A stretch of 58,334 bases of DNA from Bacteroidota bacterium. Lineage in GTDB: Bacteria; Bacteroidota; Bacteroidia; Chitinophagales; Chitinophagaceae. Shown here piece after piece: positions 4,295 to 57,970 of the stretch (position 1 is the stretch's first letter; every line of letters starts with the position of its first letter). The notes beneath the pieces are model-generated. The model worked only from the letters and a program-made list of their open reading frames with translations. It had not been told where the DNA came from and did no database searches. A program made the position numbers and the translations under genes. The DNA lies in NCBI GenBank assembly GCA_016868455.1, contig VGGV01000016.1, positions 1 through 58,334 on the forward strand, given 5' to 3'.

Positions 4295-5248
4295 TTAAAG
4301 CTTTTTCAGGGGTTCGGCCAAACCGTTCATAAATTCCTGCCATACTTTTTTTACGATGTCGCCGGCCGGTAAAATACTGTTCAACAGAGCGCCTGCCTGC
4401 CCTATTTCCAGTTCACCCTCTTCGAGGTCGCCTTCAAACATTCCTTTTTTGGCCCTTGCCCTTCCTAATATCATTTTCAACTCCTCGGCGGTAGCCCCCC
4501 GGTGTTCGGCTTCCTGTACCTGCTGAAAGAATTTGTTTTTGATCATCCTGACCGGGGTGATCTGCTTCAGCGTAAGCTGTGTGCTGCCCTCTTCCATATT
4601 TATCACCGCCTGCTTAAAATTAAGATGCGATGAAGCTTCTTCACTGGCCACAAACCGGCTGCCCATTTGTACCCCTTCTGCCCCCAGCACCATGGCCGCC
4701 AGCATCTGTCTTCCGTTTACAATTCCACCGGCAGCTATCACCGGTACTTTTACAGCCTCTGCCACGGCGGGAACCAGTACCAGGGTTGTTGTTTCCTCTC
4801 TTCCGTTATGTCCGCCTGCCTCAAAGCCCTCAGCCACCACCGCATCACAGCCGGCTTCTTCTGCTTTTCTTGCAAATTTTGAAGAACTGACCACATGGAC
4901 CACTGTAATTCCCTTTTCTTTTAAAACACCCGTCCATGTTTTGGGGTTACCGGCTGATGTAAAAACTATTTTCACTTCCTCATCCAGAATGATCTGAATA
5001 TGCTTATCAATATCGGGGTACAGCAGGGGTACGTTTACACCGAAGGGCCGGGTTGTTGCAGCTTTGCATTTACGGATATGTTCCCGTAAGACATCCGGAT
5101 ACATCGAACCGCTGCCTATAAGGCCCAACGCCCCGGCATTGCTCACTGCACTGGCAAGCCGCCAGCCGCTTGCCCATATCATTCCTGCCTGAATGATGGG
5201 GTAGCCGATACCGAAAAGCCGGGTGCTACGATTGGAAAATTCAGTCAT
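4295..5248 (-). CDS. Nitronate monooxygenase family flavoprotein (NPD/FabK-like)
   Basis: This 317-residue TIM-barrel flavoprotein belongs to the 2-nitropropane dioxygenase family, which binds FMN. The start shows PIIQAGMIWAS. The phosphate-binding part is AEGFEAGGHNGREE (about 140-153) with the family's catalytic His, followed by PVIAAGGIVNGRQM and GAEGVQMGSRFVASEEA. Members act either as nitronate monooxygenases or as FabK-type enoyl-ACP reductases, and sequence reading alone cannot separate the two. The start codon at 5246-5248 overlaps a heptamer-repeat element that occupies the 5' flank. Expression may therefore depend on sequence within that element. Confidence 0.8.
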   Translation of the reverse strand: MTEFSNRSTRLFGIGYPIIQAGMIWASGWRLASAVSNAGALGLIGSGSMYPDVLREHIRKCKAATTRPFGVNVPLLYPDIDKHIQIILDEEVKIVFTSAGNPKTWTGVLKEKGITVVHVVSSSKFARKAEEAGCDAVVAEGFEAGGHNGREETTTLVLVPAVAEAVKVPVIAAGGIVNGRQMLAAMVLGAEGVQMGSRFVASEEASSHLNFKQAVINMEEGSTQLTLKQITPVRMIKNKFFQQVQEAEHRGATAEELKMILGRARAKKGMFEGDLEEGELEIGQAGALLNSILPAGDIVKKVWQEFMNGLAEPLKKL

Positions 5249-5306
5249 GAGTCGTTAGTCTTTAGTCACTGATGTTGGCGGGGTAAAGATAGTTACTGAC
5301 GACTCA
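5243..5306. repeat. Heptamer-phased AGTC repeat with inverted partner
   Basis: AGTC occurs at 5243, 5250, 5257 and 5264, exactly 7 bases apart. TGAGTCGT (5248-5255) has its reverse complement ACGACTCA at 5299-5306. The element covers the start codon and 5' flank of the nitronate monooxygenase gene. Confidence 0.75.
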
Positions 5307-5319
5307 CTAATTACTTAAC

Positions 5320-6309
5320 CTATCCCAGATCAATGCTTGTATTATCCCCGATGTTAAGCGACCGGCTGTCACCACGTAAATTGGTATCGCTGCCAATTAC
5401 AGATTCATTTAGTACTATATCAACCAGGTTGGAAAACGAACCGATAATGGAGTTCTTTACAATGGAATAATAAATAGTGGTATTGTCGCCAATAGTAACA
5501 TCTGGCCCGATAATGGAATTTTTGATATTACAGCCTGAGCCAAAACTTACGGGCGGGATAATAACCGTGTTTTCATATTGAGAAGCATCCGTCGCAGGTG
5601 CAAACTTTTTAAGCAAAGTGGCGTTTGATTCCAGCAGGGTTTCTTTTTTGCCGCAGTCAAACCAGTTTTCCACTTTAAATGATTTAAACTTTGCACCCGT
5701 CTGCAACATGCAGTCCAGGGCATCGGTAAGGCTGTATTCACCATGGCTTCGCAGCCCCTGGCGGATATTACTTTCCAGGCACTGAAACATCTGCTCGCTT
5801 TCTTTTATACGGTATACACCCACCAGGGCCATATTCGATTTGGGTATTTGTGGTTTTTCCACCACATGGCTTATAAAGCCGCTTTCTTCAATTTCCGCTA
5901 CGCCAAAATCACGGGGATCATCCACCTTTCTCACCCCAATCATGGAACAGGGGCTTTTCACCACTTCCTGTATATCGTATTCGCAAATGGTATCACCCAG
6001 TACCACAAACACTTCATCATTGTTTACAATGTTCCGGGTAAGGCGGATGGCATGGCCTACACCTTGCCTGTCTGTCTGGTGCACAAAATGGGCCTTTATT
6101 TCCGGGTATTTGCTTTTTACATAATCCTGAATCTTTTCTCCCAGGTAGCCCACAATGAAAATAATTTCTTTTATGCCCGCCTGTTTCAGCTGATCAACGA
6201 TGATACTGAGTACCGTTTTGCCTGCCAGCGGAATCAATGCCTTGGGTTGCGTGTAACTGTGAGGACGCAGTTTGGTACCTGCACCGGCAGCCGGAATGAT
6301 AGCTTTCAT
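5320..6309 (-). CDS. Sugar-phosphate nucleotidyltransferase (NDP-sugar synthase)
   Basis: This 329-residue enzyme would join a nucleoside triphosphate and a sugar 1-phosphate to give an NDP-sugar. The N-terminal nucleotidyltransferase fold shows PAAGAGTKLRPHSYTQPKALIPLAG (residues 6-30; the GxGT-R/K-L-RP signature with its Lys). VLGDTICEYD (about 104-113) supplies the metal-binding Asp. The last 75 residues are left-handed beta-helix hexapeptide repeats (NSIIGPDVTIGDNTTIYYSIV and following). This matches glucose-1-phosphate thymidylyl/uridylyltransferase-like proteins, but base and sugar specificity cannot be assigned. The gene is separated from its neighbours by about 70-115 bases. Confidence 0.85.
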   Translation of the reverse strand: MKAIIPAAGAGTKLRPHSYTQPKALIPLAGKTVLSIIVDQLKQAGIKEIIFIVGYLGEKIQDYVKSKYPEIKAHFVHQTDRQGVGHAIRLTRNIVNNDEVFVVLGDTICEYDIQEVVKSPCSMIGVRKVDDPRDFGVAEIEESGFISHVVEKPQIPKSNMALVGVYRIKESEQMFQCLESNIRQGLRSHGEYSLTDALDCMLQTGAKFKSFKVENWFDCGKKETLLESNATLLKKFAPATDASQYENTVIIPPVSFGSGCNIKNSIIGPDVTIGDNTTIYYSIVKNSIIGSFSNLVDIVLNESVIGSDTNLRGDSRSLNIGDNTSIDLG

Positions 6310-8137: not shown

Positions 8138-10963
8138 TCAGAGATACCTGGCTGTATAACTTTCTTTTTGCTTTTTGAGATCAGCGGGTTTGCCTGTAAA
8201 AACAATGTTTCCTCCGCCATCGCCTGCTCCAGGCCCCAGATCAATTACCCAGTCTGCTGAGCGGATCACATCGGTATTGTGTTCTATAACAATAATAGAA
8301 TGTCCCTGTTCAATCAATGCATTGAAGGAAGCCAGCAGTTTTTTTATATCATGAAAGTGAAGTCCGGTGGTCGGTTCATCAAAAATGAAGAGAATCTTGT
8401 TTCCGCTCCTTCCTTTTCCAAGGAAAGAAGCCAGTTTTACCCGTTGCGCCTCGCCGCCAGATAATGTGCCCGATGATTGTCCCAGTTTTATATAACCCAA
8501 TCCCACATCACTAAGCGGTTGCAGGGCATGACTGCAGGAAGAAGGTAAAAAAGAAATTGCTTCATCCACACTCATTTCCAAAACATCATAGATGCTTTTG
8601 TCATTAAACTTCACTTCTAAAACTTCCTCTTTAAATCTTTTTCCCCCGCAGCTTTCGCATATCAGGTGCACATCGGCCAGAAATTGCATCTCCACTATTT
8701 GTTCGCCCTCTCCTTTGCAGGAATCACATCTTCCCCCGTCTACATTAAAAGAAAAATGTTTGGGCTGTAAACCCCGCATTTTACTCAGCGGTTGTTTTGC
8801 AAACAAATCCCTTATTTCGTCATAGGCCTTTATATAAGTAACCGGATTACTGCGGCTCGATTTGCCGATGGGGTTCTGGTCCACCATTTCAATTTGTGCA
8901 ATACTCTCCACATCGCCGCTGAGCTGCTTGTGATACCCTACTTTCTCACCGTATTCGCCTTTTATCTTTTGCAGGGCAGGATACAATATTTGTTTAACCA
9001 ATGTGGTCTTGCCGCTGCCGCTCACTCCGCTTACCACGCAAAGCACATTCAGCGGGAACTCAACTATGATGTTCTTTAAATTATTATGCCGGGCCCCTTC
9101 CACCTTAATGGAGCGGTTCCATTTACGCACTGTTTTAGGCGGCTCAATAGTCAGCTCATGGTTTAGGTATTTGCCGGTAAGGCTGCCGGGGCTTGAAATA
9201 ATTTCATCATAATCACCTTCGGCCACCACTTCACCGCCAAGATGGGAAGCCAGCGGCCCCATGTCAATGATATGGTCGGCTTCCCGCATCATCATCTCAT
9301 CATGCTCTACCACAATCACCGTGTTTCCAAGGTCTCTCAGCTCTTTCAATACTTTAATAAGATTAGCTGTATCCCTTGAATGAAGCCCGATAGAAGGCTC
9401 ATCCAGTATGTATAAAGAATTGGTAAGGTTGCTGCCCAGGCTTCTTGTCAGTTGTATCCGCTGGCTTTCGCCCCCGCTCAGTGAGTTGGCAAGACGGCTC
9501 AGCGTAAGATAACCCAGCCCCACTTTGATCAGTGTGCCCAGGCGGTTGTGCAGTTCAGTTAAAATTCTTTTTGCTATTTCCAGATCCTGCCGGCTGAGGG
9601 TAAGGTTATCAAACCATGCTTTCAAATCTTTTACCGGCATGGTGCTGAGCTCACCAATATGTTTTCCGCCCACTTTCACATACAAGGCTTCTTTCCGCAG
9701 GCGGTAACCATTGCAATCCGGGCATTCTGTTCTTCCGCGGTACCGGCTTAATAAAACCCGGTACTGCACCTTGTAGAGCTGTGATTCCACATCTTTAAAA
9801 AAATCGTTGATGCCGATACCATCCACCCCTTCCCAAAGCTGCCGGTATTGTTTTTCTGTCAGGTCGGCGATGGGTTTATGAACCGGGAAATTGACTGCCA
9901 CGGAACGCTTGATAAAATTCTTCCGCCACCAGTCCAGTTTCTCGCCCTTCCATGGCGCTACGGCGCCTTCATACACACTCAGCCGCCTGTCCGGTATCAC
10001 CAGGTCGGGATCAATGCCCAGCACCTGAGAAAAACCTTCGCAGGTGGGGCAGGCCCCAAAAGGATTATTGAATGAAAATAAATTGGGCTGCGGTTCTTCA
10101 AACTGCATACCGTCCAGTTCAAAACGGTTGTTGAAATGCAGCAGTTTGCTTCCATTCACTTCAAGATACACATCGCCCTCGCCTTCATAAAAAGCAGTAC
10201 TGATTGAGTCGGCCATCCTGTGCCTGTCATCTTCATCAAACTCTTTTACAATTACCCTGTCAACAAGTATATGTGAAATCTTTTTTTGCTTCAGCTCTTT
10301 ATCATTTAACTCTGTCAATTCCTCGATTCTATAAACAACTCCCTGTTTCTGACTATTGACTCCCGACTCATGACTATAGACTCTGCTAAACCCCTTTTGT
10401 GTCAGTATGTTCAGTTCCTCCCTTGTATCCCTGTTCCTGTGTTGTTTAAAGTTGGCAAGAATAAAAACTTTATCCCCTTCATTTAATTTAATGATTGCAT
10501 CCAGCACATCTGTCACATCATCTTTCTTAACCTCCCGGCCTGAAACAGGTGAAAGGGTCTTTCCGGCCCTCGCAAACAGCAGCCGGAGGTAATCATATAT
10601 TTCCGTCATGCTCCCAACAGTGCTCCTCGGTGTTCTGGTAATTACTTTTTGTTCGATGGCGATGGCGGGGCAAAGGCCTTTGATGTAATCCACATCAGGT
10701 TTATTCATACGGGTAAGGAACTGCCGGGCATAAGCGCTGAGGCTTTCGGCATAGCGGCGCTGACCCTCGGCATATAATGTATCAATAGTAAGCGATGACT
10801 TGCCGGAACCTGAAACCCCTGTCACCACAATCAACCTGTTCCTCGGTATCGCTACCTCAATATTCTTCAGGTTATGCACCCGGGCGCCTTTGATGAGGAT
10901 GTTTTCTGCGGAAATTACGGTCTTCGGTTTGGCGGGATTTTTCCCTTTTATTCTCGTCTCCAT
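8138..10963 (-). CDS. uvrA: Excinuclease ABC subunit A, divergent UvrA paralogue
   Basis: UvrA is the damage-sensing ATPase that loads UvrB in nucleotide excision repair. The 941-residue protein has two ABC modules: Walker A at about 49-58 ([10 protein letters not shown]) and again near 636, with signatures LSGGES near 495 and LSGGEA. The C-terminal zinc module is intact (CDSC, 20-odd residues, CESC). The first zinc module is not: the site usually holding the first CxxC pair reads [16 protein letters not shown], leaving only CPTC (305-308), and SPVSG (138-142) replaces a usual CPxCG. This resembles a second UvrA type of Bacteroidota, so a housekeeping uvrA may exist elsewhere. Residues about 194-205 derive from a heptamer-repeat insertion. 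Confidence 0.9.
10351..10382. repeat. Heptamer-phased GACT array inside uvrA
   Basis: GACT occurs at 10351, 10358, 10365, 10372 and 10379, all exactly 7 bases apart, with variable intervening bases. The stretch is translated in uvrA as [12 protein letters not shown]. Confidence 0.8.
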
Positions 10964-35825: not shown

Positions 35826-37199
35826 TTATAGGTGTTTATCCTCCTCTTCCTTAAAGAGGTCAATAATTCTGTCTTTAAACTTGCTCCAGAATCCCGTCAG
35901 GTTTTTTCTTTTCACCATTTCTTTCTCGCTTACTGAAGTTTCTTCTTCCGGTATTGCTTCCTCCTGCGCTTTTTGTTTCAGTGCATCCGGCACTTCCACA
36001 TTTTTGAAATCCATTTCAAACTGCTTGCGGTTGTGCTCATAATCATCGTAGCCTTTCAGTATAAGCCCGATGCAGGTGGAGTAGGTGGGCCTGGCCAGTT
36101 CTTCGATATGTCCTGCCGCCAGGTGTTCATTCGGGAAGCCGATTCTTGACGGAAGACCGGTTGCGTACTCAGTGAGCTGAATAAGGTGTTTCAACTGCGA
36201 ACCGCCTCCGGTAAGAATGATGCCGCCGTTCAGCATACGGTTATCCAGCCCCACCTGCTTCAGGTGATAGGTAACAAAGTCCATGATTTCACTCATCCTT
36301 GCCTGAATGATGTTGGCCAGGTTCTTTACACTGATCTCCTTGGCAGGCATTCCCCTTAAACCCGGGATGGTGATATAGGCATTGGCTTTGGCTTCGTTTG
36401 CCAGGGCGCTGCCAAACTGCACTTTCATAGCTTCTGCCTGTGTTTTGAGTACACCCAACCCGGTTTTGATATCGTTGGTTATGTTCTCTCCGGCAAAGGG
36501 AATAACAGCTGTATGTTTTAAAATGCCTTCATAGAATACAGCCAGGTCCGTAGTACCTCCGCCAATGTCCACAATGGCAACACCAGCTTCAAGGTCTTCC
36601 TGCCCCATAACGGCTGAAGAAGAAGCCAGCGGCTGCAACACTAAATCTTTTGTATGCAGACCCGATCTCTCCACACTGCGGTTGATATTCCGGATGGCAT
36701 TTTTATCGCCGGTGATGATATGAAAGTTGGCGCCGATCTTAACACCACCATATCCGATGGGATTCGGAATGTTCTGAAAATTATCCACGGTAAATTCCTG
36801 CGGTATTACATCTATGATCTGGTCGCCTGCAGGTATATAGGTTTTGTACTGGTCGTCAACCAGCTGATCAATTTCTTTTTGGGTGATCTCCGTATCTGTA
36901 TGCTGGCGTACAATATCGCCTCTTGTCTGCAGGCTTTTAATGTGGTGACCGGCAATACCGACATACACTTCGCTGATGTTAAGCCCGGGATTGGAGGCAA
37001 AGCAATTGTCCAGCGCCGCCCTGATGGCCTTGATGGTTTCATCAATATTCAGCACCTGTCCGTGCTTTACTCCATTGGAGCTGGATTTACCGAAGCCAAG
37101 TATTTCCAGTTTGCCAAACTCATTTTTGCGCCCGGCAATGACCGCAATCTTGGTAGTCCCGATATCGAGACCGACAATAATGGGTTGTTCGTTGTTCAT
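35826..37199 (-). CDS. ftsA: Cell division protein FtsA
   Basis: This 457-residue actin-like protein tethers FtsZ to the membrane. The nucleotide motifs are GLDIGTTKIAVIAG (about 9-22), VDIGGGTTDLAVF (about 207-219) and GGIILTGGGSQLKHL (about 325-339). The C-terminal amphipathic membrane-targeting helix is seen in LTGFWSKFKDRIIDLFKEE. Three copies of a 13-bp A-rich repeat (minus-strand sense) directly precede the start codon. ftsQ lies 58 bases upstream. Confidence 0.96.
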   Translation of the reverse strand: MNNEQPIIVGLDIGTTKIAVIAGRKNEFGKLEILGFGKSSSNGVKHGQVLNIDETIKAIRAALDNCFASNPGLNISEVYVGIAGHHIKSLQTRGDIVRQHTDTEITQKEIDQLVDDQYKTYIPAGDQIIDVIPQEFTVDNFQNIPNPIGYGGVKIGANFHIITGDKNAIRNINRSVERSGLHTKDLVLQPLASSSAVMGQEDLEAGVAIVDIGGGTTDLAVFYEGILKHTAVIPFAGENITNDIKTGLGVLKTQAEAMKVQFGSALANEAKANAYITIPGLRGMPAKEISVKNLANIIQARMSEIMDFVTYHLKQVGLDNRMLNGGIILTGGGSQLKHLIQLTEYATGLPSRIGFPNEHLAAGHIEELARPTYSTCIGLILKGYDDYEHNRKQFEMDFKNVEVPDALKQKAQEEAIPEEETSVSEKEMVKRKNLTGFWSKFKDRIIDLFKEEEDKHL

Positions 37200-37238
37200 A
37201 GTTGTTGTTTTTAGTTGTTGTTTTTAGTTGTTGTTTAT
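37200..37238. repeat. Three tandem 13-bp repeats abutting the ftsA start codon
   Basis: The unit AGTTGTTGTTTTT repeats at 37200, 37213 and 37226, the third copy ending TAT instead of TTT. Read on the coding strand it is an A/C-rich tract directly before the ATG, in the place where a ribosome binding site would be. Confidence 0.85.
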
Positions 37239-45372: not shown

Positions 45373-45393
45373 ACTCACCATTCGTTACTCACC
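45373..45393. repeat. Heptamer-phased repeat after the murE stop
   Basis: ACTCACC (45373), ATTCGTT (45380) and ACTCACC (45387) follow one another with a 7-base period, just past the murE stop codon. This is a short, possibly decayed member of the heptamer arrays. Confidence 0.4.
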
Positions 45394-51830: not shown

Positions 51831-53111
51831 ATGAAAGACCCCAGAAATATATCTATCCGGGACTTTACTTACTCCCTCCCGGAACAACGCATCGCCGGAT
51901 ATCCGCTGGCTGAAAGAGATGCTTCCAAACTCCTTATTTACAAAGAGGGCCTGATAACCGAAGACCTTTACAGAAATATCAGCAATTATATTCCTGAAAA
52001 TTCCCTTCTTGTTTTTAATGATACAAAGGTTGTGGAAGCAAGGCTGCTCTTTCAAAAACCCACCGGAGGCGTAATTGAGATTTTTTGCCTGGAGCCGCAT
52101 GAGCAATATCCCGACATCACCACGGCTATGCTGCAGACCTGCCTGCCGGCAGGCAAGGAAGAAAAAGTATGGTGGCATTGCCTGGTAGGCGGCGCTTCCA
52201 AATGGAAACACGGCCAGGTGCTGGAAAAAAGGATCACACAGGAAGGATATGAAATTGTATTGCAGGGAAAGTATGTTGAAAAGAAGCAGGACTCATTTAT
52301 CATAGAACTATCCTGGCATCCCGTTCATTTAAGCTTTGCAGAAATACTTCATTACGCCGGAGCAGTGCCGCTTCCCCCGTACATCAGAAGAGCTGTTGAG
52401 GAGTCCGACAGGGAGAGATACCAGACCGTGTATGCCCATTTTGAAGGATCGGTGGCGGCCCCCACGGCTGGTCTTCACTTTACAGAAAAGATTTTTAATG
52501 CCCTGAAATCAAGAAAAATCAAAACTGAATTTGTCACCCTGCATGTGGGAGCCGGTACTTTTAAGCCCGTGAAAAACGAAACCATGGCTGAACATGAAAT
52601 GCATGCTGAATGGATAGATGTGCGCCGTTCTTCAATCGAAACGATCTTGAACAGTCTTGACCGCGACATTATTGCTGTCGGCACCACTTCTCTGAGAACG
52701 ATAGAAAGTTTATACTGGATGGGGGTAAAAAGTCTGGAGTCATCTGCCGATAGTCAGGAGTCAATATATCTTTCACAATGGGATGTATATGATTTAAACA
52801 AAGGAAACATTTCAGTTAAAGACGCCTTGCAGGCATTGCTTGAACGAATGGCAGAAAACAATTTGGAGCGGCTTGTTGCAAAAACACAAATACTGATAGC
52901 ACCGGGTTACTCTTTTAAAATTGTAAAAGGCCTTATCACCAATTTTCATCAGCCGCAATCCACTTTGTTGTTACTGATAGCATCATTTATTGGTGAAAAC
53001 CTGCCTACCGGACAGGCTGGCTGGAAAAAAGTATACGACTATGCACTGCAAAACGATTTCCGGTTCCTGAGCTATGGAGACGGGAGTTTACTTTGGAGGA
53101 GTACCGGTTAA
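51831..53111 (+). CDS. queA: S-adenosylmethionine:tRNA ribosyltransferase-isomerase
   Basis: QueA transfers the ribosyl moiety of SAM to preQ1-tRNA in queuosine synthesis. ATG 51831 (MKDPRNISIRDFTYSLPEQ) is preferred; ATG 51807 would add eight residues. The conserved core shows LLVFNDTKVVEARLLF, SVAAPTAGLHFTEKIF, LHVGAGTFKPVK and the C-terminal FLSYGDGSLLW. The 426 residues exceed the usual 350 or so. Part of the excess comes from three repeat insertions: a palindrome at 52138-52158, a heptamer-phased AGTC stretch at 52731-52762, and LPTGQAG at 53001-53021. Its end overlaps the convergent histidine kinase gene by four bases. Confidence 0.95.
   Translation: MKDPRNISIRDFTYSLPEQRIAGYPLAERDASKLLIYKEGLITEDLYRNISNYIPENSLLVFNDTKVVEARLLFQKPTGGVIEIFCLEPHEQYPDITTAMLQTCLPAGKEEKVWWHCLVGGASKWKHGQVLEKRITQEGYEIVLQGKYVEKKQDSFIIELSWHPVHLSFAEILHYAGAVPLPPYIRRAVEESDRERYQTVYAHFEGSVAAPTAGLHFTEKIFNALKSRKIKTEFVTLHVGAGTFKPVKNETMAEHEMHAEWIDVRRSSIETILNSLDRDIIAVGTTSLRTIESLYWMGVKSLESSADSQESIYLSQWDVYDLNKGNISVKDALQALLERMAENNLERLVAKTQILIAPGYSFKIVKGLITNFHQPQSTLLLLIASFIGENLPTGQAGWKKVYDYALQNDFRFLSYGDGSLLWRSTG
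52138..52158. repeat. Palindromic element inside queA, copy 1
   Basis: TGCCTGCCGGCAGGCA (52140-52155) is a perfect 16-bp palindrome. It is read in a different frame from the other copies, giving CLPAGK. Confidence 0.75.
52731..52762. repeat. Heptamer-phased AGTC array inside queA
   Basis: AGTC occurs at 52731, 52738, 52752 and 52759, all on one 7-base register with the copy at 52745 lost. It is translated as KSLESSADSQESI. Confidence 0.7.
53001..53021. repeat. Palindromic element inside queA, copy 2
   Basis: The sequence CTGCCTACCGGACAGG and the next five bases encode LPTGQAG, between IGEN and WKKVYDYAL, where related proteins read straight through. Confidence 0.75.

Positions 53112-56371: not shown

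Positions 56372-56374
<3 letters not shown>
56304..56374. repeat. Octamer-phased repeat filling the atpD-atpC gap
   Basis: AATGTGAT is tandemly repeated at 56304 and 56312. Four octamers ending in TTA follow at 56343, 56351, 56359 and 56367 on an 8-base register. TAATGTG (56311-56317) and CACATTA (56360-56366) are inverted arms. Confidence 0.6.

Positions 56375-57970
<1,596 letters not shown>

Follow-up and report, generated by a model that had tools for sequence, protein, structure and literature searches.

AGTC arrays in seven-base register in a Chitinophagaceae genome and its congeners: a heptameric repeat family that also enters coding sequence

The STRR heptanucleotides of Calothrix and other cyanobacteria were reportedly described by Mazel in 1990. 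The Calothrix case is cited in a study of heptameric repeats whose available text describes (GGGANTN)n or GGGAATC units in Xanthomonas and GGGGA(C/T)T units in Nostoc (Rehm et al., 2015, PMC4692102). Direct repeats of the heptamer TAACTGA are recorded from Beggiatoaceae, Cyanobacteria and five Bacteroidetes in the available part of a second account (MacGregor, 2015, PMC4679880), which also cites Mrazek (2007) for heptamers being the commonest long SSR (LSSR) in most of the genomes studied. Earlier heptamer arrays (Cyanobacteria, Xanthomonas, Beggiatoaceae) have been explained piecemeal, by quadruplexes or by translational control. The preliminary description of the arrays considered here held that no described class fits them, a view that has to be given up, as the available portions of both Rehm et al. 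(2015, PMC4692102) and MacGregor (2015, PMC4679880) describe close relatives in kind. In the literature searches, neither a title nor an abstract dealt with AGTC heptamers of Chitinophagaceae.

The stretch of DNA analysed (hereafter the window) comprises 58,334 nucleotides, and gene families were assigned for five of its genes. Inside uvrA (8138..10963, minus strand) five exact cores follow one another at 7-base steps at 10351..10382, with the spacers TAT, ATG, GGG and AAT, as had been reported; since uvrA is on the minus strand, the GACT of the forward strand reads AGTC on the coding strand, and this minus-strand array is in frame at about residues 194–205, within the UvrA_inter domain (PF17760, residues 150–269). 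The array at 5243..5267 (plus strand), for which the same period had been claimed, does hold four exact cores and is intergenic, with an NMO-family gene (4295–5182, minus strand) and an NTP_transferase-family gene (5320–6309, minus strand) on either side. Its probable decayed convergent partner, recognized by eye, consists of GACT/ACT at 7-base steps on the minus strand at 5294..5315, and the orthologous site of a congener (G022) carries an array pair with a clear partner arm. A further plus-strand array (52731..52762) lies in frame within a Queuosine_synth gene (PF02547; 51831–53111); it had been listed under the same rule and obeys it as two plus two AGTC copies, but with a decayed unit between them (four of five cores exact), and the G022 orthologue has a six-unit array at the matching place. 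The plus-strand array at 57885..57912 was rightly described as drifted, as it reads GGTCTGA AGTCTGA AGTCTGA, with two exact AGTC copies and related units; it stands upstream of an ATP-synthase-family gene (56372–57871, minus strand) and has, by eye, a probable decayed convergent partner at 57946..57966 (minus strand). The supposed shorter relative at 45373–45393 contains neither AGTC nor GACT, and all it has is the word ACTCACC twice, at a distance of 14 bases; having no core, it is not counted as an array. The window also contains a 13-base tandem repeat, GTTGTTTTTAGTT, in 3.5 copies at 37191–37236.

Over the whole genome (G000, 2.64 Mb) the pattern AGTC(N3)AGTC(N3)AGTC has 32 matches against 5 for the reversed pattern, and with both gaps left free between 0 and 20 bases (441 combinations) the spacing is exactly 7/7 in 32 of 70 matches. 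The four-unit pattern has three matches (two places) in the window and none in 100 shuffles of the window. The genome-wide excess of the 7-base register anticipated from the window is therefore real, and tandem 7-base units are dispersed above chance in the manner of the heptameric tandem repeats (STRR / heptamer SSR). The three-unit pattern occurs in 30 of the 58 genomes searched, this one included, and its congeners carry from 0 to 183 matches: among those of at most 2.1 Mb one in 15 has a match (a single one), among the larger ones 16 of 19 have at least one, and several congeners rated 100% complete have no three-unit match. Patchiness of this sort among related species is likewise a feature of heptameric tandem repeats. 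The four-unit form was found in 84 of 395 Bacteroidota (this genome included). The reversed-core control is also frequent in the phylum, with 627 matches in one genome (G238) for example, and therefore phased arrays of several cores occur there, AGTC being one among them.

The uvrA array lies opposite a nine-residue gap in the UvrA of T. maritima (3pih). In the corresponding loop AGTC arrays are present in four congeners (G001, G022, G031, and G058) and two units in G029, GGGAGCC heptamers occur in G019, and the remaining congeners seen have unrelated loop sequence. Selection on the protein was rejected as an explanation, as uvrA loops vary in length and sequence; the segment proved to be an insertion in a variable loop rather than conserved protein, so that conserved-protein selection, already discounted in the preliminary description, does not account for it. 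The uvrA gene of G022 has a second AGTC array, in the opposite orientation, in another loop, and at this second position CCCATTG-like heptamers are found in G010; other Chitinophagaceae have other heptamers in their uvrA loops. A search of 107 uvrA frames for windows with 19 or more self-matches in 28 positions gave 22 at lag 7 and 14 at lag 14, against 0, 3, 3, and 6 at the control lags 5, 6, 8, and 9; of the 22, three (L087, L140) are found where a stop-to-stop frame begins, possibly ahead of the start codon, and L041 and L070 represent a single genome counted twice. These frames represent 107 of 110 loci (L057, L060, and L128 were left out), four of the 107 pairs being identical copies of one genome. 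Among named uvrA records the closest belong to MAGs of Chitinophagaceae or Chitinophagales. The uvrA gene of G028 (L252) contains, at about codons 311–331, an in-frame GACTCCC-type array of 16 units.

The surroundings of the arrays were described from 99 arrays in fetched stretches of G000, G001, G022, and G028 by means of a simple gene caller of our own. For G000 the set is complete as to exact three-unit places; for G022, with 108 matches, it takes in nearly all of the 100 that were listed, and for G001 (28 matches) and G028 (183 matches, about 50 listed) most of the listed ones. The arrays are mostly intergenic (71, against 28 in genes), as heptamer repeats are. Pairs within 500 bp are convergent in 23 cases, divergent in none and on the same strand in four, and 16 convergent pairs lie within 100 bp; with G058 added and both arms counted, 41 of 120 arrays have a GACT partner no more than 100 bases away on their 3′ side, and 0 of 120 have one on the 5′ side. 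Where the upstream neighbor is the 3′ end of a gene, the array starts at a median of 2 bases from the stop codon and is nearer to that gene end in 39 of 43 cases, whereas an upstream 5′ end imposes no proximity rule (10 of 26). Single arrays inside genes are in the sense orientation in 20 cases and antisense in 4, and those between tandem genes in 25 and 13, respectively. The last unit is decayed in 38 of the 99 arrays and the first in 13, and 73 of 97 consist of 4 or 5 units, a distribution to be read with the required seed of three exact units, to which shorter arrays are invisible. Stop codons near arrays are TAA in 10, TGA in 16, and TAG in 15 instances, against 306, 164, and 123 in all called genes (P 0.003). 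The stop codon as sole seed was considered and rejected: 20 of 41 stops are in register (TAG, TGA), which is forced where the stop lies inside the array, and the 20 arrays beginning downstream of the stop are spread over different phases.

Such a placement invites the explanation that the arrays are functional 3′-end elements, each convergent pair forming an RNA stem-loop behind the stop codon that acts as a terminator or 3′-end stabilizer, and the singles being decayed halves. The strict convergence with partners on the 3′ side, the hugging of stop codons and the sense bias of singles within genes all favor it, as does the finding of a hairpin followed by seven T in G060 where G058 has an array pair (L264), and of a hairpin with a T run in G028 where G022 has a pair (L188/L228). 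However, cognate arms pair no better than swapped ones (mean −31.16 versus −31.63 kcal/mol, P 0.65, 17 pairs), a comparison that also led us to reject the copying of one arm from the other, and a folding z below −2 is attained by 42 of 121 arrays as against 26 of 110 ordinary gene 3′ ends. Moreover, 79 of 120 arrays are without a partner in a loose test, and 24 singles lie inside genes. Nor is the core more conserved than its surroundings. Between G058 and G060, whose uvrA genes are 86% identical, eight gap-free arrays show 22 changes in 155 core positions, 14 in 93 spacer positions, and 33 in 313 and 54 in 318 flanking positions; because exactness of the core in G058 was the criterion by which arrays were chosen, the real amount of core change is if anything greater. 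These eight arrays, from one species pair, give no indication that the core is under selection. A role as 3′-end element is on balance unlikely.

The composition of the spacers bears on how the arrays are made. The preliminary description assumed a fixed core with a free spacer; the core does recur, but the spacer is restricted: its first base is open, its second avoids C and its third is mostly T or G. None of the 50 spacers examined in G000 or the 149 in G022 has C at position 2 (in G001 one of 36 does), T or G occupies position 3 in 46 and 135 of them, respectively, and the two positions are linked, the G022 spacers ending in GG (45), TT (36), TG (32), or AT (13), with no AG. The spacer GGG is dominant in G028 (41 of 72) and accounts for just 4 of 50 spacers in G000 and 22 of 149 in G022, so that a quadruplex is unnecessary for the architecture. 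Neighboring spacers resemble each other only a little more than shuffled ones do in G000, G022, and G001 (P about 0.09 each) and clearly more in G028; within the arrays of G000 and G022 they are close to independent draws.

Array births and losses can be followed between related genomes. One array at a gene end (L270) is present in G058 only, while G060, G025, G022, and G000 share a plain ending, and its four spacers are all different. At three more places (L264, L265, and L271) G060 and one further genome have no array, G060 keeping a single AGTC at the latter two, and the G058 arrays are mixed; the outgroup is here a single genome beyond G060, and the absence at these three places may reflect loss. 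Arrays are thus mixed already while young, and drift at the distance separating G058 and G060 cannot produce such mixtures. Orthologous G060 stretches were available for 23 G058 arrays but not for two more. In 10 of the 23, G060 retains three or more units in phase with no more than one mismatch in the core, and in 13 it does not; under a stricter rule (three units in a row, two of them exact) 6 of 28 G058/G060 rows have an array, both directions being counted. At about 87% flank identity same-site spacers match at 0.917 versus 0.705 when permuted (6 rows), and at about 74% they match at 0.599 versus 0.576 (P 0.10; 73 rows, some pairs being counted in both directions and some being window/locus duplicates). 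Same-site arrays at the larger distance are without spacer memory. The presence of arrays at the same site in 73 of 159 comparisons is biased upward because most far stretches were fetched for holding arrays; the spacers were not selected.

These data weigh on ordinary slippage of a seven-base unit followed by point-mutation drift, the process that Mrazek proposed for heptamers according to the citations in the available text of PMC4679880 and PMC4692102. Slippage would explain the pure arrays that exist (GTGAGTC in G022, AGTCAAT in G163), the arrays of G028, which are more homogeneous than shuffled ones and include two- and three-unit block repeats (L221, L223), and one site (L261) at which five units appear to have shrunk to a single one in G060. 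It does not explain mixed arrays where close relatives have none, the near-independence of neighboring spacers in G000 and G022, or the linked limits on spacer positions 2 and 3, a pattern not expected of drift from one unit. By itself slippage agrees with G028 and with the pure arrays but not with young arrays that are mixed, and it is doubtful as an account of the family. Because young arrays are mixed and neighboring spacers near-independent (G000, G022), a templated process fits better than slippage plus drift; of the two origins first suggested, templated synthesis or slippage and then drift, it is the former that is favored.

The reading that we tentatively put forward is a neutral, self-propagating family of AGTC arrays built by template switching on the 4-base core; that the arrays are mutational products and not selected sites is held equally tentatively. 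A new array would start at a chance AGTC-like seed, from which a replicating or repairing polymerase would jump among the many existing arrays of the genome, re-anneal on the 4-base core and copy one to three units from each. The outcome would be a constant core and register, with near-random spacers from the genome's own pool. Arrays would be removed by deletion between units and by point mutation, and would survive where they are harmless, that is, just behind stop codons, in intergenic DNA, or, where they are inserted in frame, in variable protein loops, those of UvrA among them. We infer the jumping between arrays, the role of the seed and the harmlessness; copying between arrays is weakly visible. 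Shared strings of three spacers are in weak excess in G058 (2 versus 0.33 expected, P 0.044) and in borderline excess in G028 (24 versus 14.6, P 0.076), with no clear excess in G000 (0 versus 0.11) or G022 (2 versus 0.79, P 0.18). The young array L270 has 23 bases in common with L263, at whose G060 site there is an array too; whole-array copying between places was rejected, as the excess of shared strings is weak. The strict convergence (23:0), the partners on the 3′ side only and the start at stop codons are not predicted by template switching and count against it.

An alternative, which we consider rather unlikely, is a genome-wide synthesis that would lay down phased-core DNA de novo from an RGTC anchor, in steps of 7, 8, or 9 bases and with pooled spacers, so that arrays would be mixed and head to head at birth. 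No description of such patchwork, anchor-based DNA addition was found in the literature. Sister families exist at periods 8 and 9. In G000, RGTC recurs every nine bases with spacers like AAATA and ATATA at six places (C3:26174, C3:74632, C11:60139, C14:11631, C18:4921, and C23:12582; L313–L318), four of which have convergent partners by eye and two of which start near a stop codon; similar strings occur in G001 and G022, and collagen-like GGTCC repeats, also caught by the period-9 search, were set aside by eye. AGTC also recurs at a period of 8, with spacers like CGGA, CGAA, and GGAA, in G001, G058, and G060, and at G060:C3:32376 (L312) a period-8 array stands where G058 has a period-7 array (L267). 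The RGTC core shared by periods 8 and 9 hints that the core itself matters, which speaks against the neutral reading preferred above. Pure or nearly pure CCACTCT and GAGAGAA heptamer arrays were observed beside AGTC arrays in G028 (L218, L221).

One core at periods 7, 8, and 9, its constancy next to restricted neighboring bases and the strand polarity might also be expected of phased binding sites under selection for a nucleoid or RNA-binding protein, a possibility raised in the preliminary description. This is improbable: core, spacer and flanks changed alike in the eight G058/G060 arrays, so that phased binding finds no support there, and the arrays are patchy in one genus, with zero matches in several 100%-complete genomes. 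It is most improbable that the arrays are the ends of a mobile inverted-repeat element (MITE or REP-like) with a variable middle, which would suit the convergent pairs within 100 bp and an AACAGCC(C/A) tail common to four G028 arrays, since within a genome the arrays have few flanks in common other than partner arms, no larger shared element was found except for that tail, and the stretch between the two arrays of G022 uvrA is ordinary uvrA.

Whatever the standing of template switching, which we tentatively prefer, AGTC arrays are, judged by their sequence architecture, members of the known STRR / heptameric-SSR kind. STRR and LSSR heptanucleotides, compared here by citation, are likewise dispersed tandem heptanucleotides, and their sequences differ from AGTC. 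The TAACTGA repeats, in the available part of their description (PMC4679880), share with AGTC arrays the seven-base direct repetition, a patchy occurrence that includes Bacteroidetes, the overlap with stop codons, the location of some copies inside ORFs and, in some species, mixed heptamers. They differ in having one exact unit, here replaced by AGTC and a restricted spacer, and in their position in the BOGUAY genome, which is for the most part immediately ahead of start codons; that part of the account gives no convergent-pair rule. The (GGGANTN)n repeats of Xanthomonas, as far as the available text goes (Rehm et al., 2015, PMC4692102), have a habit of about four units, and they share with AGTC arrays the convergent pairing (23:0 within 500 bp in AGTC arrays) and the hugging of stop codons. 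In contrast to them, AGTC arrays have a different core and units in which a run of three G is not obligatory, they enter the loops of core genes, and their core has been tested for constraint.

A shared architecture with an unrelated core that needs no G tract suggests one general process. The congeners offer a comparative handle on it, as one can follow at defined sites how arrays arise and disappear and how fast their cores change, and the loops of UvrA and of the queuosine enzyme illustrate a route for repeat DNA into proteins, with different heptamers in different species. Compared with the systems described before, what is new is an AGTC family without an obligatory G tract, with a convergence of 23:0 and with a core changing as fast as spacer and flank (eight arrays, one species pair), whose arrays are mixed while young and have no spacer memory at about 74% flank identity, and which has sister families at periods 8 and 9.
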